A stretch of DNA of 64,000 nt, taken from Acidobacteria bacterium Mor1 (GTDB taxonomy: Bacteria; Acidobacteriota; Polarisedimenticolia; Polarisedimenticolales; Polarisedimenticolaceae). The notes under the pieces are model-generated. The model was not told where the DNA came from, made no database searches, and was given only the letters and a program-made list of their open reading frames with translations. Positions 38,308 to 48,318 of the stretch are shown here, piece by piece; position 1 is the first letter of the stretch; each line of letters opens with the position of its first letter. Location of the stretch: contig CP011806.1 in NCBI GenBank assembly GCA_001664505.1, positions 2,704,904-2,768,903 of the forward strand. Direction: 5' to 3'. A program made the position numbers and the translations under genes.

Positions 38308-38946
38308 ATGACCGCGTTTCAGGGAATACTCGGCGCACGGGTGGCAGGCAGACCCCGCCCGGCTTATGACGTGAAGCAGGCGCCGACCGACGAAACCACC
38401 GAACGCTTCGCCGCCGGCGACCCCGAGGTCGTCGCCGCAGCGGCCGATCTCGTGCGCGAAGCGGTGCGGTTCAAGGGCTTCTACATTCCCGCACAGGATC
38501 AACCCGAGGTCATTCAGGAGACCCTGACCGACCTGTGGCGATCTCTTCGAGCCGGGAAGAGCAACGCCAACCCCCGGAACTTCGAGGCCTACGTAAGGAC
38601 CATCGCCTATCGCCGCTGCGTGGACTGGATGCGTAGCCGGCGGCCTCAGGAAGAGCTCTCGGTCGACGTCCCCGACGCCATGGGAGACGCGGAGCACCGC
38701 GCCCTCGCCGCCGAACGCGTTCGTATCGGCGCCCGGGTACTGGAGAGCCTCAGCCCCGCTTGCCGCACGTTGATCGCGGCTCACACGGTGGACCAGCGCA
38801 CCTACGCCGACATCGCGGCGGAGCAGGGACGGTTGGAAAAGACCGTGCGCAACCAGATGTACAAGTGCCTCAAGTCGGCGCGATCGATCCTCGATCGCAT
38901 GCTCAAGCGCGAGAAGCTCGGGCTGCGCGCCAAGGACCCGTCATGA
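38308..38946 (+). CDS. ECF-type RNA polymerase sigma factor
   Basis: A 212-residue sigma factor. Region 2 is in PEVIQETLTDLWRSLR...FEAYVRTIAYRRCVDWMRSRR; region 4 is in SLSPACRTLIAAHTVDQRTY followed by the helix-turn-helix IAAEQGRLEKTVRNQMYKC. There is no region 1.1 or 3, so it is ECF-type. It directs RNA polymerase to an alternative promoter, probably its own operon. The ATGA overlap with the next gene couples it to its anti-sigma factor. Confidence 0.88.
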   Translation: MTAFQGILGARVAGRPRPAYDVKQAPTDETTERFAAGDPEVVAAAADLVREAVRFKGFYIPAQDQPEVIQETLTDLWRSLRAGKSNANPRNFEAYVRTIAYRRCVDWMRSRRPQEELSVDVPDAMGDAEHRALAAERVRIGARVLESLSPACRTLIAAHTVDQRTYADIAAEQGRLEKTVRNQMYKCLKSARSILDRMLKREKLGLRAKDPS

Positions 38947-39746
38947 ATCATCCCCAGGCTCGCTATCTCCTCGCCGACTGGCGCGCGGGACATCTCGATC
39001 CGAGCACTGCCGGTGAGGTCTCGCAACACGCGGAGAACTGCTCGATCTGCCGGCCGCTGGTCGAGGTCTACGACCTGGTTCGCGCTCCGGCACGGGCCCG
39101 GACTCATCTGGCCGCCGAACGATTGGTCGACATCGCGCTCGGACGGGACCCACTCCCCGAGGAGCAAGAACATCTCGCCCTGTGTTCCGCCTGCAACGAG
39201 CAGATCGATCAGGTCCGCGCAGCGGAAGCCTCGCGACGGGTCCCGCCGCGCCGGAAGCAACGCCGGACCCGCCTCGCCGCCACGCTGGCTGCAGCGGCGG
39301 CACTGGCATTCACGGCCTTCCTCGGAGGCCGCATGAGTCAAGCACCTACGGCCGTTGTGCCCGACTCCCCCGCCCTGACGCTGCGGGAGCTGCCGTTGCT
39401 CCGCGGCGCGCAGCGGGCCGGGGAAGCAGAGCGCCTGCCGGCCCGGGACGGTCGCATCGAGATTGCGCTGGCCGTCCCGATTCCCGAGTCGCAGCCCGGC
39501 GATCTGCGGGTCGAGATCGCATGGTCGATGGCGGACGATTCATCGGTGCACCGCACCTACCTCACGATTGACGAACTGCGCCGGCTCAGTGCCGGCAGCG
39601 GAGCGATCTTGATCACCCTTCCGGTAGGAGACCGTGAGGAAGGATCGGGACACCTCGTATTGAAATCGATCTCCGGCGAGGAAACGTGGCTGGACACCCC
39701 GGTCTCATGGCACGTCTCGTCAGAGACAGGAGGAGGGCAAGAATGA
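38943..39746 (+). CDS. Transmembrane anti-sigma factor with two zinc-binding motifs
   Basis: A 267-residue protein. Residues 20-40 hold an H-x3-C-x2-C motif (His29, Cys33, Cys36), and residues 77-84 hold a second one (His77, Cys81, Cys84). Such ZAS motifs bind zinc in anti-sigma factors. A single membrane helix (about 112-132) and an extracytoplasmic beta-rich domain follow. It overlaps the sigma factor by four bases and the next gene by four. It should hold the sigma factor inactive until a periplasmic signal arrives. Confidence 0.85.
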   Translation: MNHPQARYLLADWRAGHLDPSTAGEVSQHAENCSICRPLVEVYDLVRAPARARTHLAAERLVDIALGRDPLPEEQEHLALCSACNEQIDQVRAAEASRRVPPRRKQRRTRLAATLAAAAALAFTAFLGGRMSQAPTAVVPDSPALTLRELPLLRGAQRAGEAERLPARDGRIEIALAVPIPESQPGDLRVEIAWSMADDSSVHRTYLTIDELRRLSAGSGAILITLPVGDREEGSGHLVLKSISGEETWLDTPVSWHVSSETGGGQE

Positions 39747-41308
39747 GAGATGGCCTAGGTCGCCTGGTGGGCATGGCGGCACTTTTGGCGCTGGCGGCGA
39801 CGTCGAGCGTAACCCTGGCGCAAGAAACCTGGATTATCGGTGAAGGCAGCGGCTCCCTCTGGGTGTTCGACCCGGTACAACAGGTGATCGTCGATGAGGT
39901 CGCGCTCCCCGAGCGTATCGGCTCGGCGACCGATCTGACGCTTTCCACGGTTCCCGGCCACCGGCACGACGAGGTGTTCGTCGCTTCGGGCAGCCGGCTG
40001 ATCCGCTTTGACCGGATCTCCCGCGCCCCGGTCGAACTCCTCGACCTGAACGCGCTGCTCGATGCACCGGCGACCATTCGCGACATGTTCGCCGGCCTTC
40101 CGGCCACGGACACCGAGGGCCATGCGCGCACGCTGCTGTACGTCCTCGCCGACGTGGCGACCAAGGGCGGGAAGGGCGCCAAGCAGGGTCACGCCACCCC
40201 TCAGATCATCGTCTTCGACCAGGAAGTGTTGACCGAGCTCGCGACGGGAGCGCTGATCGTCGATGTCGAGCCGGTTCCGTCGGGCGAGCCGGGAGCGTGG
40301 ACCGGCTCGGGCATCAGTGTGGCCGACGCACCGGGAGCTCCCGACTCGCCGCGGGTCTGGGCAACGATCCGCAATCAAACCCAGCCGGCCCAGATCGAAG
40401 CCCACCGCTTCACGCTATCGGCGGCATGGACCCTCGCTCCGGTGGAGTCACGAAGCTTCGCTCTTGCGGCTGATGCCGTGGACGAGATGCGCGCTGCGGT
40501 GGTCGCCGATCACGACGACGCGCTGCTCCCGCTGCCCGGCCAGGGGACGCTGCTCAACCTGACCGGTGACGGCAGCTGCGTGTTCGACGGGCGGATGGAT
40601 GCCGGCGCTCTCAGCGGGCCCGCAGGCGGCTTCACCTTCATCGGGATCGACGCCACCGGCACCAGGGCGCTGCGCTTCAACGCAGGCACCTGCGATGCCG
40701 CGGGCTATCCCCTGGAGTTCCGTCCGACCGCGATCAGCCTCGTCCGTTCGGACGCACCATCCGATGCGATCATTTCCCATCGCGACGACGATAGAATCTC
40801 CATGCTCAAGCCCAGTGGCGAGGTGGATTCGATCCTGCTCGGCAGTGGGAAACCCGGGAAGTGCCAGATATGTCCAGGCGAATCGGAAACGGCATTCGAT
40901 GGAGGCGGAGGGGGTTGTCCGATCAACATCACCGGAGCGAGCGACATCGCACCCGTCGGTCCGTCCCAGTGGTCGGTCGCCTGGCAGGCGCCCGGCTGCG
41001 ATCCGGGCTTCGACGTCTGGTGCACCTGTCTCGACACCTCCAATCCGAACTGCTTCTCCTGTTACTGCCCGACACCTCAGACCAAGGGCTGCATCTTCCC
41101 CGATTGGTCGGTCCAGAACAGCGCCGACTTCATCCCGTCGACACCGGGCAGCAACGGCCCGCCGATGCCGCTGGGCCCCAACTCGTCTCCCTGGAAGCAT
41201 CTGGGTCTGACCTACGGCGGCGGTGGACCGAACTACGTCTACACCGACCCGACCAAGAACGCGTTGGAACGCATTCTGTACGCCATCACCGGCGTCTACT
41301 GGGAGTGA
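39743..41308 (+). CDS. Exported propeller-like protein with Cys-rich end
   Basis: A 521-residue exported protein (signal LVGMAALLALAATSSVTLA). The body of about 350 residues has repeated beta segments (SGSLWVFDPVQQVIVD, VFVASGSRLIRFDR, DDRISMLKPSGEVDSILLG) suggesting a six- or seven-bladed propeller. The C-terminal part is Cys-rich (GKCQICPGES, FDVWCTCLDTSN, NCFSCYCPTPQ). AGGAGGG before the ATG at 39743 supports the start. It overlaps both neighbours by four bases, so it belongs to the sigma/anti-sigma/CHAT operon. The family is not recognised. Confidence 0.78.
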   Translation: MRDGLGRLVGMAALLALAATSSVTLAQETWIIGEGSGSLWVFDPVQQVIVDEVALPERIGSATDLTLSTVPGHRHDEVFVASGSRLIRFDRISRAPVELLDLNALLDAPATIRDMFAGLPATDTEGHARTLLYVLADVATKGGKGAKQGHATPQIIVFDQEVLTELATGALIVDVEPVPSGEPGAWTGSGISVADAPGAPDSPRVWATIRNQTQPAQIEAHRFTLSAAWTLAPVESRSFALAADAVDEMRAAVVADHDDALLPLPGQGTLLNLTGDGSCVFDGRMDAGALSGPAGGFTFIGIDATGTRALRFNAGTCDAAGYPLEFRPTAISLVRSDAPSDAIISHRDDDRISMLKPSGEVDSILLGSGKPGKCQICPGESETAFDGGGGGCPINITGASDIAPVGPSQWSVAWQAPGCDPGFDVWCTCLDTSNPNCFSCYCPTPQTKGCIFPDWSVQNSADFIPSTPGSNGPPMPLGPNSSPWKHLGLTYGGGGPNYVYTDPTKNALERILYAITGVYWE

Positions 41309-43668
41309 TCCCCGTGGGATGCAAGGGGGCGGCCGTAGTGGCGGCCGCCGCCTTGCTCTGCGGCTGCACGGAAAAGCCGGAGCCTCCCGTCGATCCCATC
41401 GAGGCGGTCGGCACCTGCCCGACCGGTGACCGGGCCTGGCGCGCGGTCCTCGAGGCGAAACCGGACCCGGCCGACCTTCCCGAGAGCGCCTGGCTGGCCG
41501 GTCAGGTGGAACGCTGCGCGCCACGCTGGGAGCCGCTGTGGTTCAAGGGAGAAGTAGAGCTGCGGCGCGGAGAGCTGCAGGAAGCGCAACAGTCTTTTCA
41601 GCAGGGTGCCGCCGCTGCCGAACAGCAGGCGGACCCGACCGGGATCGCCTGCAATCTCAACCGGCTGGGCGTGTTCGCCTACTACAACCAGGAACTGGAA
41701 CGCTCGGAAACCCTCTACCGGCAGGCCCTCGCCGCCGCCCGTCAGGCCGAGCGGCGTGACCTTGAAGGCTTTGCCCTGAACAATCTGGCCGGGACGCAGC
41801 TCGAACTCAACCGCATCGGCGACGCGCTGTCGACGATGTCGGCGGCCAGCGAAACGCTGAAAGACGCCGGCCGTGGCTCGGTCGCCCGATCCATCGCGTA
41901 CAACCTCGCCGTACTCTCGATGGAGCTCGGAGACTGGAACGGCGTCCGGGAAGAGCTCGAACGGCTCGACGAGGCGTGCGCCGAGGCGGGTGACCTGGAG
42001 GTCGGCCCCTACGTCCGGATCGCGTTGGGGTTCCAGGCGCTGGCCCGGGGCGAACTGGAGCAGGCGGCCCAACGCTATCGTTCGCTGCCCAGCTCGACGC
42101 CGGTTATCGCCGCCGAGCGCAGCATCGGCCTCGGGCGGGTGGCCATGGAGCGGGGCGAACTCGAAGACGCCGCGGGTTTGTTCGGCACCGCGGCCGCCGC
42201 CGTACGGGAGCACGGGTTGCCCGTGGAATCCCGGGCGCGGGTGCTGGAGTTGACCGCTCGCGCCCGCCAGGGTCGGTCCGAAGAGGCCCGGGACGGATTC
42301 CGCGCCCTGATCGATCTGAAGTACCCCGATACCGACTCCGAGGACTACGCGGCCTGGTCGGCCTGGCAGGGTCTGGGAGGTGCGGAACATCGGCTCGGCA
42401 ATCTCGACGCAGCCGCCGCAGCCTACCGCCGCTCGATCGACGCCATCGAACGGCTGGGCACCGGGCTCGACATGACCGGCGACGGGCTGTACTTCCTCTC
42501 CGGGCGCAACGACCCCTACCTGGATCTCGCCTGGCTGCTTGCGGGTTCGCCGGAGTCCGTATCGGAGTTGCCGGAGATCTTCGCGGGCGCACAAACCCGG
42601 GCGCTCGGCCGCATCGCGTCGGAACCCGGTGAGGCGCGTCCCTTCGATACGGCGAGCCTGGAACCGAACGAAGCTTGGCTCGGCTATCTGATCGGCGCCG
42701 AGAGGAGCGTCGCGCTGGTTGCGACCCGCGACAACCTTCGGGCTGTCCGGCTCGAGGGCTCCCGGAAGGTCGCCGGCGATGCGCAACGCTACCTGGCCGC
42801 GTTGCGCCGCCCCGGGCAGGCGCTCGCCGCGCAATCCGACCCGATGGCGGACCTGAACCCCGATCTCGAGGCAGGTCGCCGGGTGCGCCGAGCCTGGATC
42901 GACCCCCTGCTCGCAGGCCTGGACGGAATCGAGCGGCTATGGCTTTCCCCGGCGGGCGATCTGGCCACCTTGCCGGTGGCTGCCCTACCCCTCGACGGCA
43001 ACGGCGAAGGCTTCCTCGCCGATCGATTCTCGGTGATCCGCATGCCGCGCCCGGGAACCGTCCCGAGAGGAAGCCAGCCCTTCGAGCGAGTCCTGCTTGC
43101 CGGCGACCCGACCCGCGACGGCCGCCCCCGGCTTCCCCGGGCGGCTTCGGAGCTCCGGGCACTCGAGCAAATCTGGGGAACGTCACGGAGCACCGCCCTG
43201 TCTGCCGCCGCGTTCGTCGCGGAGCCCCTCGAAGGAGCCCTGCAGGCCGGCCCGAACCTGGTCCATTTCGCCACCCACGCCGAAGCCTCGTCCCTCGACC
43301 CGCGCAAGAGCGGACTGGAACTCTCCGCGGACAACAGGCTGGGATTCGATCGGATCGGGCGGCTGCCCCTGGACGAGGCCTGGGTCGTACTCGGCGCCTG
43401 CAGCACCGGCGAAGGAGAATCGATCCCCGGCCAGGGCATCGTCGGGCTGGGTTGGGCCTTTCTCACGGCCGGGTCCCGGGGCGTGCTGATGACACTCTGG
43501 GAACTGGACGACGATGTCGCTGCTGAGTTCTCGGTGGCGTTGCATCGGGAGTTGGAGCGACACGGTGACCCGGTTTCGGCGGTGCATCGCGCCGCCGCAG
43601 AGATTCGCGAGAACCGGCCTCATCCGTACTTCTGGGCACCCTACTCGCTGACCCTGCGCTCGGACTGA
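41305..43668 (+). CDS. TPR-CHAT (caspase-like peptidase) lipoprotein
   Basis: A 787-residue protein starting with a GTG that overlaps the previous stop (GTGA). A lipobox (ALLCGC) suggests membrane attachment. Residues about 60-400 are TPR repeats (LFGTAAAAVREHGLPVES, HRLGNLDAAAAAYRRSID). The C-terminal CHAT domain holds the catalytic pair: His658 in HFATHAE and Cys699 in GACSTGEGE, followed by TLWELDDD. CHAT domains are caspase-related peptidases; in other bacteria they cut partner proteins in defence and cell-death pathways. The target here is not known. Confidence 0.9.
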   Translation: MIPVGCKGAAVVAAAALLCGCTEKPEPPVDPIEAVGTCPTGDRAWRAVLEAKPDPADLPESAWLAGQVERCAPRWEPLWFKGEVELRRGELQEAQQSFQQGAAAAEQQADPTGIACNLNRLGVFAYYNQELERSETLYRQALAAARQAERRDLEGFALNNLAGTQLELNRIGDALSTMSAASETLKDAGRGSVARSIAYNLAVLSMELGDWNGVREELERLDEACAEAGDLEVGPYVRIALGFQALARGELEQAAQRYRSLPSSTPVIAAERSIGLGRVAMERGELEDAAGLFGTAAAAVREHGLPVESRARVLELTARARQGRSEEARDGFRALIDLKYPDTDSEDYAAWSAWQGLGGAEHRLGNLDAAAAAYRRSIDAIERLGTGLDMTGDGLYFLSGRNDPYLDLAWLLAGSPESVSELPEIFAGAQTRALGRIASEPGEARPFDTASLEPNEAWLGYLIGAERSVALVATRDNLRAVRLEGSRKVAGDAQRYLAALRRPGQALAAQSDPMADLNPDLEAGRRVRRAWIDPLLAGLDGIERLWLSPAGDLATLPVAALPLDGNGEGFLADRFSVIRMPRPGTVPRGSQPFERVLLAGDPTRDGRPRLPRAASELRALEQIWGTSRSTALSAAAFVAEPLEGALQAGPNLVHFATHAEASSLDPRKSGLELSADNRLGFDRIGRLPLDEAWVVLGACSTGEGESIPGQGIVGLGWAFLTAGSRGVLMTLWELDDDVAAEFSVALHRELERHGDPVSAVHRAAAEIRENRPHPYFWAPYSLTLRSD

Positions 43669-43805: not shown

Positions 43806-46800
43806 CTAGCGGCAGATCAACTCGTGCACCACGGTGCAGGTCGACACGTTGCCCGATGCGTCGATCGCGGTGTAGGTCACGGTGTGGAGACCCGGCCCGG
43901 TCAACGGGTCGGGGCTGGCGGTCACCTTGGGCTTCGCATCGCATTCGTCGACGGCGCTGGCCGGAGGCGGCGATGCCGAGCACTTGTCCCCGCCCAGTAT
44001 CGAGACCGGCAACGGACAACTGATGACCGGCGGTGTCTTGTCGTTCTCGCAGTCGTCGCAGGTCACCGCCGCGGCGACCGGAACGTCCGCATCGTTCTGC
44101 GATCCGTCACCGAGCTGGCCCTGGGCGTTGCGGCCCCAGGTGTAGACCCAGCGATCGACGCCGAGTGCGATCGAGTGTTCGAATCCACCGTCGATGGCCT
44201 GGATAGGACCGGTCATGGTGTTGACCACCATGACAGGCAACGACTGGAATCCGCCGAACAGCCCGTCGCCGAGCTGGCCGGAGGTGTCGTTACCCCAGCT
44301 CCAGACAGCGCCGTTGGCGTCCAGCGCCAGTGAATGCCGGTCGCCGGCGGCCACGTCACGGACAGGCCCCATGGCGGCCGCGGAGACGAGATCGGCGTGT
44401 GGCCGGATGCCGCCGGGTACGCCGTCGCCGAGTTCGCCGATGAGGTTACGCCCCCAGGCCCAGGCCCGGCCGCCGGAGTCCAGCGCCACCGAATGGCCGA
44501 AGCCGCCGTCGATGTCCACCACGTCGACGAGGGCCACACCGGTGAAGTCGACCACCTGCACCGGAAGCGGTTGGTTGATGGTGCCGCCGTCTCCCAGCTG
44601 CCCGTCGGTATTGCGTCCCCAGCTCCAGACGTTGCCCCCTGCGTCGATGGCGAGGGAGTGATGCACGCCCGCAGCGATGGCGACGATGTCCTGCAACGGA
44701 CCGCCGGAGGCGGGATCGAGCACGAGATCCGCCAGGTTTACCGGACCGCCGATGGTGCCGTTCCCCAACTGGCCGAAGTTGTTGGCGCCCCAGGACCAGA
44801 CCTGGCCCCGGTTGTCCAGCGCCAACGAGTGGATCCCGCCGCCGGACACCGCCTGGATATCTCCCAGCGGGTTCCCGGAGACGTTGCGCACGGCCACCGG
44901 CAGGGAGCTGTTGCTGAACGAGCCCTCTCCGAGTTGACCGTTGCCGTTGCGCCCCCAGGACCAGACAAAGCCGTTGTTGTCGATCGAGAGAGCATGGGCA
45001 ACCTCGTAGCCGCCGGCCGAGAAGGAGACGACATCGACCAGGTTCGCGGCACCGGTCGAATCGAGCACCGGGTCCGGGTTGGGCAGCGGACCGCTGAAGG
45101 TCCCCTGGCCCAGCTGGCCGTGGGTGTTGCCGCCCCAGGAGAAGAGCAGCGGATCGTCGCGAAGCGCCAGGGAGAAGCCACCGCCGCCGGAGATCGCGTC
45201 GTAGCAGCCCCGCTCCTTGTCGCAGGGTTCATCTTCGATGACCTTGATCTCCTGGGTACAGGTGGTGGCGTTGCCCGAGGCGTCGGTTCCGGTGAACTCG
45301 ACCAGCGTGGTTCCCACAGGGTAGCACCAGGTCAGGTCCCCTTCCTGGGGCGGGTCGATGTTGTTGGTCACGCTGACGTCGGAGCAGTTGTCCCCGGTAC
45401 ACGTTCCGAGCCGCACCTCGGCGCAGCAGGTATCCGGGTCGGCCACGACGGTCATCCCGCCGCCGTTGGGCGTGGTGAAATCGATCTCGAGCTCGGCGAA
45501 ATCGATCCGGGTGTCGTCGGTAATCGAGATGCTGAGCGGCGAACCGTCGATCAGGCCCAGGACTCCGGGGAAGTCGGCGAGATCCAGTGTCGTGGTCCCC
45601 GCCGTGTTGGGGTTCGGGCAGTTGCCGTACATCGCCTGAGTGAAGGGGTCGAAGCAACGGCCGAAGGTCAGCGTCCCCGAGGCGCTGGAGAAGGTGATTG
45701 TCTCCGTCGGCCGATCCGGCCCGCCGGCACAGGCCCCGCAAAGGGTGTCCACCAGCTCCCAGTCCAACGTCAATCGTGCACCGCTGACGCAGGCATCGGG
45801 ATCCATCGCGTAGGTGTGGTTCCAGGCGCGGCAGAGGTTAGCGCCCGGCGTGTCGGTACCGACCGGACCGCCACCGTAGGGGCACCCGGCGAAGTTCGGC
45901 CCGGGACCGGGGTTATCCCCGGGATCCCCCGGAGTGAAGTTGTCGTCGTCGCCGACCGTGTCGCTGACCGACATCGCTGCGCCGCACTCCAGGGTCGGAT
46001 CGGCGAAGTCGACCACCTGGTGCAGCGTCGAACAGGTGGAGACGTTCCCCGAGGCGTCTGTCGCCGTGTAGTTGACCGTGGTCATGCCCGTGCCGTTGAG
46101 CACCGGCGGCGTCGTGACCAAGGTCGGGTTCGGATCGCAATTGTCGGTGACCTTGGCCTCGAGGGGGTCCGCCGAGCATTCCCGGTCGGCCAGGATGCTG
46201 ACCGGAAGGGGGCAGGACAGGGCCGGCGGCGTCTGATCGACGATCTGGTACTGCACGGTGCAGCTCGAGGTATTCCCCGCCGCGTCGGTGGCGGTGTAGG
46301 TCACCGAATGGAAACCGACACCGTTGATCCCGGTGGCGCTCTGGGTCACCGTCGGGTTGGGATCGCAATCATCGGTTGCGGTGGCCTTGGGCACCTTGGC
46401 ACCACAGGCGCGATCGGCGATGAAAGAGACGGGCAGCGGACAGGAGAGCACCGGCGGCGTGGCATCGTTGGCGCAGGGGCAGCCCGGAACTACCGTGGCG
46501 CAGACCGGATCGGGCACGATGCCCGACCATTCCTCGTTGAACGTCCCCCACGTGTTTCCGCCGGCGGTCTCCCGCTTGGAGCCGCCGAGGGCGTAGATGG
46601 TGTCGCAGAGCGCGACCACCGCCAATTCGTCACGGCCGGCGCCGGGGGGCGCGGGCAGGGTCGTCCACACACCGGTCGCCGGATTGAAGGACTCGAAGTG
46701 CGCGCTACCGCTGTGACCGTTGCCGCCGACGACGTAGATCATTCCGTCACCACCTGTCGCCGCTCCGATCTCGGCGTCACCGGTATTCATCTGCGGCGCC

Positions 46801-47474
46801 ACCGTCCAGCTATCGAGGAGCGGGTCGTAGGCTTCGTTCTGGCGGCCGTTTCCGGTGTGGCCACCGACCACATAGATCAGACCGTTGCAGGCGGCTGCCG
46901 CGGCGATCCCGGCTCGAGCCGTAGGCATGGCCGTCAACCCGGTCGTCCAGCTGTCGGTGATCGGGTCGTAGGCCTCGACGGTGTTGATCGACGTGATGTT
47001 GGTTCCGCCGAAGACATAGATCAGCCCGTTGCTGCCTGCGGCAGCCGCGGCGAAAGAACGCGGGGTCGGCATCGCCGTCAATCCCGTGGTCCAGCTATCG
47101 TTGACCGGGTCATACGCTTCCACCGTCGACTGCGCGGTGGCGCCGATCTGGCCGCCGATCACGTAGATCATGTTGTTGACCGTCACCGCGACCAGACGGC
47201 TCCGGGGCGTCGGCATCGGGCTCAACGCCGTCCAGTTGTTGGTTGCCGGGTCGTACTTTCTCGGCACCGCGATCGATCCGCCGGTCGAGCTGTTGCCGCC
47301 GAAAACGAAGATCTTGTCGCCGCCTCCGTCGTCGGCGACGGCGGCGGCATGAGCCGCTCGCGGCGGACTCATCGGCGCCTTGGTTGTCCAGGTGGCATAG
47401 GCGGGTGAGGCGGCTGCCAGCATCGTCAAGACGAGTGCGCCGACCAGCCATGTCGTTCGTCGAAAAAGAAGCAT
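43806..47474 (-). CDS. Giant secreted protein: kelch propeller, HYR domains, RCC1 propeller
   Basis: A 1222-residue exported protein. After the signal (LVGALVLTMLAAASPAYA) come six kelch units (KIFVFGG, MIYVIGG, LIYVFGG, LIYVVGG, MIYVVGG, TIYALGG), two HYR-like Ig domains (each with PVxxTATDAxGNxSxC), a longer segment with a metal-ion-like site, a third HYR-like stretch, seven RCC1 units (each ending GQLGxG or GELGDG) and a final HYR domain. Six and seven blades each complete one propeller. Probably surface-exposed, binding ligand or matrix. The ATG at 47474 has GGGAGG before it. Confidence 0.88.
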   Translation of the reverse strand: MLLFRRTTWLVGALVLTMLAAASPAYATWTTKAPMSPPRAAHAAAVADDGGGDKIFVFGGNSSTGGSIAVPRKYDPATNNWTALSPMPTPRSRLVAVTVNNMIYVIGGQIGATAQSTVEAYDPVNDSWTTGLTAMPTPRSFAAAAAGSNGLIYVFGGTNITSINTVEAYDPITDSWTTGLTAMPTARAGIAAAAACNGLIYVVGGHTGNGRQNEAYDPLLDSWTVAPQMNTGDAEIGAATGGDGMIYVVGGNGHSGSAHFESFNPATGVWTTLPAPPGAGRDELAVVALCDTIYALGGSKRETAGGNTWGTFNEEWSGIVPDPVCATVVPGCPCANDATPPVLSCPLPVSFIADRACGAKVPKATATDDCDPNPTVTQSATGINGVGFHSVTYTATDAAGNTSSCTVQYQIVDQTPPALSCPLPVSILADRECSADPLEAKVTDNCDPNPTLVTTPPVLNGTGMTTVNYTATDASGNVSTCSTLHQVVDFADPTLECGAAMSVSDTVGDDDNFTPGDPGDNPGPGPNFAGCPYGGGPVGTDTPGANLCRAWNHTYAMDPDACVSGARLTLDWELVDTLCGACAGGPDRPTETITFSSASGTLTFGRCFDPFTQAMYGNCPNPNTAGTTTLDLADFPGVLGLIDGSPLSISITDDTRIDFAELEIDFTTPNGGGMTVVADPDTCCAEVRLGTCTGDNCSDVSVTNNIDPPQEGDLTWCYPVGTTLVEFTGTDASGNATTCTQEIKVIEDEPCDKERGCYDAISGGGGFSLALRDDPLLFSWGGNTHGQLGQGTFSGPLPNPDPVLDSTGAANLVDVVSFSAGGYEVAHALSIDNNGFVWSWGRNGNGQLGEGSFSNSSLPVAVRNVSGNPLGDIQAVSGGGIHSLALDNRGQVWSWGANNFGQLGNGTIGGPVNLADLVLDPASGGPLQDIVAIAAGVHHSLAIDAGGNVWSWGRNTDGQLGDGGTINQPLPVQVVDFTGVALVDVVDIDGGFGHSVALDSGGRAWAWGRNLIGELGDGVPGGIRPHADLVSAAAMGPVRDVAAGDRHSLALDANGAVWSWGNDTSGQLGDGLFGGFQSLPVMVVNTMTGPIQAIDGGFEHSIALGVDRWVYTWGRNAQGQLGDGSQNDADVPVAAAVTCDDCENDKTPPVISCPLPVSILGGDKCSASPPPASAVDECDAKPKVTASPDPLTGPGLHTVTYTAIDASGNVSTCTVVHELICR

Positions 47475-47588
47475 GAGACCTCCCTGGTGCGCGCCGCGAG
47501 CGCGGCGCAGTGGACCATCCGTACCGGGGAAGTCGAGGGCAGACGGAAAGCGCCCCCTCAAAATTAGGCGGGCTGCCCGGACGGCGGC

Positions 47589-47594
47589 TACAAT
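47589..47594 (+). promoter_or_regulatory. TACAAT -10 box before the outer-membrane barrel gene
   Basis: TACAAT lies 56 bases before the ATG at 47650. The -35 is unclear. The divergent kelch/RCC1 gene begins 115 bases away. Confidence 0.4.
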
Positions 47595-47649
47595 CGCGGC
47601 CGAACCGGGGCTCGGCGGAATCGTGCCCCGAACTCCAGGAGACACCCCC

Positions 47650-48318
47650 ATGCCCCCTCGCATCTCTAGAACCCTCGCCGTCGTTTCCCTGCTGTTTTGC
47701 GCCGCGGTGCTGCCGACCGCCCTGGCCCAGCGTTCGCCGAAGTCCTTCGGTGTCGCGCTGCGGGCCGGGACCTACGGCGTCGGCGCCGACGTCGGCATCG
47801 GGGTCAATCGCCTGATCACCGTCCGCGGCTCGTATCAGACCCTGGACGTGAACGAGTCCTTCGACGAGGACGGCATCGACTACGACGCCGACCTGGAGAT
47901 CGGCGGTACCGGCCTCTACGTCGACGTGTTTCCCTTTGCCGGCAGCTTCCGCATTACCGGCGGGCTGATAGAAAACCGCAACGAGGTCCGGGTGATGGCC
48001 ACGCCGACCGAGGCAGAGGTCATCGGGGACACCCTGTACACCCCGGACCAGATCGGCACGCTGACCGGATTCGTCGACTACGACAGCTCGGCAACCTATC
48101 TCGGCGTCGGCGTGGGCAACCTGGTTCGCGGCCGACGCTTCGGCTTCGTTTTCGATGCCGGCCTGGTGTTTCAGGATGCCGGCGACGTAACCCTCGCTTC
48201 CAGCACCGGGCTGATCGATCCCGGCGACCTGGAGCTCGAGCGTCTCGATCTACAGGATGACGCCGATGATCTAGAGTCCTGGCCGGTGATCTCCTTCGGC
48301 CTGGCCATCCGCTTCTGA
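47650..48318 (+). CDS. Outer-membrane beta-barrel protein
   Basis: A 222-residue exported protein (signal TLAVVSLLFCAAVLPTALA). The body alternates hydrophobic and polar residues in strands (ITVRGSYQTLDV, GTGLYVDVFPFAG, YLGVGVGNLV), and the C-terminus is Ile-Arg-Phe, the outer-membrane assembly signal. It probably forms an 8- to 10-strand barrel. AGGAG precedes the ATG. Its last 48 bases overlap the facing lipoprotein gene. Confidence 0.8.
   Translation: MPPRISRTLAVVSLLFCAAVLPTALAQRSPKSFGVALRAGTYGVGADVGIGVNRLITVRGSYQTLDVNESFDEDGIDYDADLEIGGTGLYVDVFPFAGSFRITGGLIENRNEVRVMATPTEAEVIGDTLYTPDQIGTLTGFVDYDSSATYLGVGVGNLVRGRRFGFVFDAGLVFQDAGDVTLASSTGLIDPGDLELERLDLQDDADDLESWPVISFGLAIRF

Follow-up and report, generated by a model that had tools for sequence, protein, structure and literature searches.

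How is a sigma factor controlled when its operon also encodes a membrane anti-sigma factor and a caspase-like CHAT peptidase? An earlier note on such an operon from Acidobacteria bacterium Mor1 proposed a circuit in which a periplasmic event activates the peptidase, which then cuts the anti-sigma factor to release the sigma factor. Here we evaluate that proposal computationally, starting from the window, which is the whole stretch of 64,000 nucleotides of contig CP011806.1 that was analyzed.

A four-gene operon with a sigma/anti-sigma pair and a CHAT lipoprotein

The operon contains the following genes:

38308..38946, + strand, ECF sigma factor, 212 aa
38943..39746, + strand, membrane anti-sigma factor, 267 aa
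39743..41308, + strand, exported protein, 521 aa
41305..43668, + strand, TPR-CHAT lipoprotein, 787 aa from the GTG at 41305, lipobox Cys C21

All three junctions overlap by four bases, exactly ATGA, ATGA and GTGA, as had been observed before, and the gene identities given in the earlier note (ECF sigma factor, double-zinc anti-sigma factor, Cys-rich exported protein and TPR-CHAT lipoprotein) were confirmed. A promoter and terminator scan found neither type of element. The sigma factor scores 55.4 bits against the TIGR02937 sigma70-ECF model (cut-off 42.9), and it matches Pfam Sigma70_r2 and r4_2 above cut-off, having regions 2 and 4 only, as in ECF sigma factors. The sigma gene has an alternative GTG start at 38371.

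The anti-sigma factor is built from four recognizable parts:

38949..39050, + strand, first zinc-type anti-sigma motif, H3 and H29-x3-C33-x2-C36
39105..39194, + strand, second zinc-type motif, H55 and H77-x3-C81-x2-C84
39270..39329, + strand, single transmembrane helix, residues 110-129
39426..39719, + strand, periplasmic Ig-like beta domain, residues 162-259

The ZAS pattern of H-x3-C-x2-C plus an upstream His or Cys occurs twice, with H3 and H55 as the upstream residues, and Pfam zf-HC2 matches residues 5-37 at 19.9 bits, just under its cut-off of 22.2. The AF2 model consists, in order, of two helical units, the transmembrane helix (also evident from hydropathy), a linker and the beta domain, whose Ig-like fold was recognized with AF2 and Foldseek. 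The helix is preceded by RRKQRRTR, which places the N-terminus inside the cell by the positive-inside rule. From its position in the operon, this protein presumably binds and inhibits the accompanying sigma factor.

The last gene encodes TPRs and a peptidase domain:

42868..43647, + strand, CHAT peptidase domain, residues 522-781, with H658 (43276-43278), C699 (43399-43401) and the candidate S1 Asp D736 (43510-43512)

Pfam CHAT (PF12770) matches at 150.2 bits against a cut-off of 24, and the TPRs are also matched. The start of this gene is not certain because later in-frame GTG codons lie at 41314 and 41338; the lipobox LCGC, which is also present in the orthologues, requires one of the first two GTG starts. 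The H658-C699 dyad and D736 are invariant in all 16 class-A orthologues, and 155 of the roughly 175 CHAT proteins carry HHCWD. The lipoprotein is predicted to be an active protease. The nearest solved relatives are Csx29 (E 3e-8) and, by a weak sequence match, separase (E 0.18). D736 follows the catalytic Cys by 37 residues, and we take the corresponding distance to the pocket Asp of separase to be about 41 residues. By motif and spacing rather than residue-level alignment, D736 is a candidate counterpart of that Asp, through which separase cuts after Arg (PMC10317155). Separase (clan CD, C50) resembles the window protein in its caspase-like fold and in the predicted cutting after Arg via a pocket Asp, but it is a eukaryotic cohesin protease.

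CHAT genes are linked to sigma genes in two phyla

The earlier note made its circuit depend on the four genes keeping company in other genomes. The set does recur, at about a dozen same-class loci, among which gene order, strand and even sigma/anti-sigma type vary. Within this genome, 17 of the 21 CHAT genes have a sigma gene no more than 6 kb away, compared with about 3.8 expected (p ~ 8e-10). We also collected 51 non-class-A loci from Acidobacteriota and Bacteroidota by CHAT pattern only, in a scan blind to sigma genes, and at 42 of these a sigma gene is located within 4 kb.

In an alternative reading, the CHAT protein is an effector and not the trigger. The sigma pair would then answer some other site-1 protease, or a conformational signal, and do no more than set the expression of the CHAT and propeller genes, while CHAT would act on a target elsewhere, in cell death or surface remodelling, and any cut in the anti-sigma linker would be made by another Arg-specific protease. 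CHAT proteases do act on other targets in other systems. Several class-A loci with CHAT and propeller genes have no sigma pair close by (four CHAT loci: L064, L065, L068 and L070), and in flavobacteria the CHAT and propeller genes are divergent from the pair. We nevertheless consider this reading unlikely in view of the anti-sigma linker, described below.

An invariant arginine in the linker of CHAT-linked anti-sigma factors

Between the transmembrane helix and the folded periplasmic domain of the anti-sigma factor lies a candidate site for proteolysis:

39390..39413, + strand, predicted periplasmic cleavage site LPLLR↓GAQ, R154 codon 39402-39404

R154 falls in a flexible, low-confidence linker of the AF2 model, with residues 151-155 at pLDDT < 50. 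A juxtamembrane linker Arg is invariant in 58/58 CHAT-linked anti-sigma factors, which we grouped ourselves into six separately aligned families (7/7, 6/6, 12/12, 4/4, 21/21 and 8/8, where 7 of the 12 members of the class-B family were fetched after the motif had been noted). The families that bear this Arg come from two phyla and have unrelated periplasmic domains, either Ig-like or TPR. Because the C-domains of the two class-A anti-sigma types are themselves unrelated (hhalign probability 0.2), a shared domain does not account for the Arg; on the same comparison we rejected a common periplasmic domain as a docking element for CHAT. No invariant linker Arg was present in a control family of 13 non-CHAT anti-sigma factors, and two more control families had too few full-length orthologues. 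Together, the conservation across unrelated domains and its absence from the control family argue against the effector reading.

The strength of the signal differs between families. Among 100 linker shuffles per family, 0-1 reached the real Arg conservation in four of the six families, 14 did so in the class C family and 34 in the window's own family, where this linker-only test is not significant and the Arg signal is weak by itself. A simple regular-expression motif was found in 15 of 21 held-out loci, against 9.8 expected from shuffled Arg-rich linkers, and in 4 of 17 controls (Fisher p 0.004). This test is of only moderate value in Arg-rich, high-GC linkers, and we therefore used family-wise column conservation. 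At least one CHAT-linked anti-sigma factor, at locus L268, is without such an Arg, though its CHAT protein retains the catalytic residues.

Linkage, topology, the invariant dyad and the linker Arg make the circuit proposed in the earlier note the best-supported reading, with its cleavage step standing as a prediction. The operon as a whole is probably best explained as a CHAT-triggered anti-sigma cleavage switch, which would signal across the membrane as a self-contained unit. Through its cytoplasmic zinc-type domains, the anti-sigma factor would keep the ECF sigma factor bound on the inner side of the membrane. Once activated by a periplasmic signal, the TPR-CHAT lipoprotein would act as an Arg-specific site-1 protease and cut the linker after R154. 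Removal of the periplasmic domain may turn the anti-sigma stub into a substrate of a site-2 (M50) protease, and cytoplasmic proteases acting after that cut would free the sigma factor. M50 proteases are encoded in the genome.

The exported propeller protein

The third gene encodes a signal peptide, a YVTN-type beta-propeller (about residues 24-386) and a Cys-rich tail (387-521). Its single sequence matched no Pfam family, and a profile of the protein matched 1l0q (E 4.8e-14), which is also the top Foldseek match of the AF2 model. The protein has invariant Cys, and its tail is predicted to be unstructured. All four propeller genes of this genome adjoin class-A CHAT genes. Judging by linkage and fold, the propeller most likely serves the CHAT protein as a sensor or regulator and would act upon it through the TPRs.

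The propeller protein could instead be the CHAT substrate, for example through its flexible tail, with the product signalling to the anti-sigma factor. Its gene does track the CHAT gene at least as closely as the sigma pair does, and its tail is the part predicted to lack structure, but the tail shows no obvious invariant Arg cut site. In other CHAT-sigma units the exported partners are unrelated (small lipoproteins or a subtilase), yet the anti-sigma Arg persists. We regard this alternative as improbable.

Relation to described systems

The earlier note could name no precedent for this gene combination, but two described systems come close. The closest known case is Csx29/Csx30/CASP-sigma of type III-E CRISPR loci, which encode a sigma factor, the sigma inhibitor Csx30 and the TPR-CHAT protein Csx29 (PMC10028731). 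Csx29 cuts Csx30, an inhibitor of CASP-sigma, and this cleavage has been proposed to switch the sigma factor on (PMC10028731). Both systems encode a TPR-CHAT protease together with an ECF-type sigma factor and its inhibitor. Csx29, however, is cytoplasmic and is activated by Cas7-11 and target RNA, whereas the window CHAT protein is an exported lipoprotein, its inhibitor partner is a membrane anti-sigma factor, its third component is an exported propeller and CRISPR is absent. The predicted P1 residue is Arg, with an invariant D736 where Csx29 has Ser. Despite the shared logic and the relationship to Csx29, it is very improbable that the operon is a Craspase-like defence module stripped of its CRISPR part, and we rejected membership: its proteins are exported, the window has no direct repeats, no cas-like genes were seen among the called neighbours, and the type III-E sigma model NF041236 reached only 16.7 bits on the window sigma factor (cut-off 100) and was not above cut-off elsewhere in the genome. 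Assignment to a known defence system was likewise rejected; the matches were limited to a TPR model and a weak one to BovA.

The second case is the ECF54 group, in which CHAT genes are conserved beside the sigma gene and which is described as having no anti-sigma factor (PMC8999054). CHAT lies close to the sigma gene in the window too, and a class C locus also has a subtilase. Unlike ECF54, both the window and the class C units encode a membrane anti-sigma factor, and the window has this factor and a propeller, and no subtilase, in place of the ECF54 neighbourhood of CHAT with subtilase/carboxypeptidase.

The proposed switch also resembles regulated intramembrane proteolysis of anti-sigma factors (DegS-RseP/RseA-sigmaE and PrsW/RsiW-sigmaW) in its single-pass anti-sigma factor, its putative near-membrane periplasmic site-1 cut and the M50 site-2 step that we infer. 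The difference is that the site-1 cut would fall to a clan CD CHAT cysteine peptidase from the same operon, rather than to a PDZ serine protease or PrsW.

Discussion

A broader proposal, which we advance tentatively as a real possibility, is that in Acidobacteriota and Bacteroidota exported CHAT proteases form a widespread class dedicated to the Arg-specific site-1 cleavage of ECF anti-sigma factors. These separase-like caspase relatives would be transducers of envelope signals, with the type III-E CRISPR circuit of Csx29, Csx30 and sigma as a cytoplasmic offshoot.

If the switch operates as predicted, a common bacterial caspase-like family would gain a role outside CRISPR and cell death, as a membrane signalling protease for which both the substrate and the scissile bond are predicted. 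Transmembrane sigma control would acquire a new type of site-1 protease. The finding would also explain why so many CHAT genes adjoin sigma genes in two phyla, and it would hint at the origin of the Craspase circuit. Our analysis suggests that CHAT-gated anti-sigma factors are a widespread and unrecognized means by which bacteria sense trouble outside the cell.

Gene set and its recurrence in relatives

The four overlapping genes that the earlier note described are present in the window, with the junctions ATGA, ATGA and GTGA read in the sequence:

38308-38946, + strand, ECF sigma factor; TIGR02937 and Pfam r2/r4 over cut-off
38943-39746, + strand, anti-sigma factor; two HxxxCxxC motifs, both preceded by a His; one TM helix
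39743-41308, + strand, exported protein (gene 3); YVTN-type beta-propeller with a Cys-rich tail
41305-43668, + strand, TPR-CHAT protein; CHAT peptidase match of 150 bits; lipobox

The anti-sigma scored narrowly below the zf-HC2 cut-off in the family scan. The propeller assignment comes from a profile match to 1l0q (E 4.8e-14), with which AF2 and Foldseek agree; the Cys-rich tail is modelled at low confidence. A big exported Kelch/RCC1/HYR-type repeat protein, called by eye (43806-47663, - strand), is convergent with the CHAT gene.

Overlaps of 4 bp are commonplace within operons, and the weight rests instead on conservation of the gene set. We searched 40 relatives with gene 3 and the CHAT protein and read up to 19 kb around each match. 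Sigma, single-TM anti-sigma, gene 3-like protein and lipoprotein TPR-CHAT recur together as a conserved unit, and all four parts of this arrangement (class A) are found in about 12 loci; its exported protein begins with an EVWVVNEN-like repeat. Gene order and strand differ between loci, and two distinct sigma/anti-sigma types occur alongside a single CHAT family and a single gene 3 family. Because these elements are exchanged, the sequence comparison argues that the linkage is functional and not merely inherited position. Gene 3 relatives are limited to the taxonomic class of the window's genome, being found in 8 of the 247 genomes sampled across the phylum, and all four copies in the window's genome adjoin class-A CHAT genes. 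No nearby sigma pair was found at four class-A CHAT loci (L064, L065, L068 and L070).

CHAT genes and sigma factors at large

The window's 6 Mb genome (5.985 Mb, one contig) has about 101 sigma-70-type loci, many with long kinase-like or anti-sigma genes after them, and 21 CHAT genes. Seventeen of the latter have a sigma gene no more than 6 kb away, versus about 3.8 expected (binomial p 8e-10), mostly in clusters of sigma, TM anti-sigma and CHAT. Besides class A, we saw two other arrangements: in class B the CHAT protein carries a TM at its C terminus, and in class C a lipoprotein CHAT comes first, then an anti-sigma, with an exported protein after it. A sigma-blind scan with two CHAT peptide patterns, one genome per species, found 79 loci; a sigma gene lay within 4 kb in 42 of the 51 non-class-A loci with sufficient flank, most with a TM anti-sigma. 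Many non-class-A loci are from Bacteroidota, such as Aquimarina, Tenacibaculum, Dokdonia and Algoriphagus.

Besides a lipoprotein CHAT and a TM anti-sigma, class C loci L080, L090, L091 and L092 encode a Cys-rich exported protein; that of L092, the one member scanned, matches Peptidase_S8 (subtilase) over cut-off. At three Tenacibaculum loci (L134, L136, L138), multiple tandem CHAT genes adjoin a single sigma/anti-sigma pair. In flavobacterial loci L139, L129, L147 and similar, a small lipoprotein gene (130-180 aa) directly precedes the CHAT gene; its products have no Pfam match and are possible counterparts of gene 3.

The earlier note knew of no described system of this kind and left unmentioned the closest one, the Csx29-Csx30-CASP-sigma circuit (PMC10028731). 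Membership of a type III-E CRISPR circuit was rejected: no repeats were found in the window, and the type III-E sigma model was not matched. Class C resembles the context of the ECF54 sigma group, whose sigma genes have CHAT genes as neighbours (PMC8999054), but differs by having anti-sigmas. The open-access literature searched on CHAT with anti-sigma or ECF factors holds little besides these two papers; the broad CHAT-sigma association may already have been described elsewhere.

A conserved linker arginine

The basic stretch RRKQRRTR precedes the anti-sigma TM helix, which should place the zinc motifs in the cytoplasm and the C-domain in the periplasm. The lipobox of the CHAT protein is kept in orthologues, so that CHAT should reach only the periplasmic portion of the anti-sigma. 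The AF2 model of the anti-sigma (pTM modest, 0.42) has two helical units and the TM helix (110-129), then a linker of low confidence, in which R154 lies, and finally a beta domain (162-259).

If CHAT acts as a site-1 protease, the cut must fall in the periplasmic part. There, after the TM helix, we found a recurrent motif, hydrophobic-x-Arg-(Gly/Ser/Ala).

Linker motifs after the TM helix of CHAT-linked anti-sigmas
Aquimarina: IPSLVTRGED
Algoriphagus: IPVMRGES
Class-A type 2: PPPTLRGQ
Class B: PVLRSVED
Window: LPLLRGAQ

In alignments made per family across the entire periplasmic half, the Arg is invariant in all six families (7/7, 6/6, 12/12, 4/4, 21/21 and 8/8), 7 of the 12 class B members having been added after the motif had been spotted. 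The periplasmic domains of the two class-A types are unrelated (Ig-like beta versus TPR; hhalign probability 0.2). With 100 shuffles of the linkers alone per family, the real value was reached once for class-A type 2 and never for class B, Flavobacteriia and Algoriphagus, but 14 times for class C and 34 times for the family to which the window's anti-sigma belongs. Seventeen of 18 sequences in an extended set of window-type relatives, read by eye, have an Arg just ahead of the beta domain with Gly, Ala or Asp as the next residue; L268 is the exception. No conserved linker Arg was found in a non-CHAT anti-sigma family (13 orthologues, same genomes). A crude motif count gave 15 of 21 held-out loci, versus 4 of 17 non-CHAT anti-sigmas of the window's genome (Fisher p 0.004) and 9.8 expected from shuffles. 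Because we assembled the families ourselves, without phylogenetic weighting, these figures are strong leads and not final statistics.

The CHAT protease

The catalytic dyad H658 and C699, together with D736 in the motif LWxxDD, are each invariant in 16/16 class-A orthologues. About 175 CHAT proteins were compared, and 155 of them retain this combination. All four class C CHATs lack a W732 equivalent, and two lack a D736 equivalent. In a CHAT-like protein of locus L286 (gene index 4), the catalytic His and Cys positions align as Thr and Ser, and it is perhaps an inactive copy.

Among solved structures, profile comparison places the CHAT protein closest to Csx29 (E 3e-8), with separase a marginal match (E 0.18). 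Separase cleaves after Arg via an invariant pocket Asp (PMC10317155), and D736 is a candidate for this role; Csx29 has a Ser at the aligned position. We infer the CHAT Arg pocket from motif and spacing.

A probable circuit for sigma release

The gene set, its conservation, the residues and the topology signals are shown by the sequence analysis; the events that may link them in a circuit are ones we infer. The circuit, similar to one that the earlier note proposed with either the anti-sigma or gene 3 as substrate, probably runs as follows. An event in the periplasm or at the surface, perhaps sensed by the propeller and relayed through the TPRs, would activate CHAT, which would then cleave the anti-sigma after R154. 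The window's genome has several M50 protease loci; one such protease, together with cytoplasmic proteases, would complete anti-sigma breakdown, and the sigma factor would be set free.
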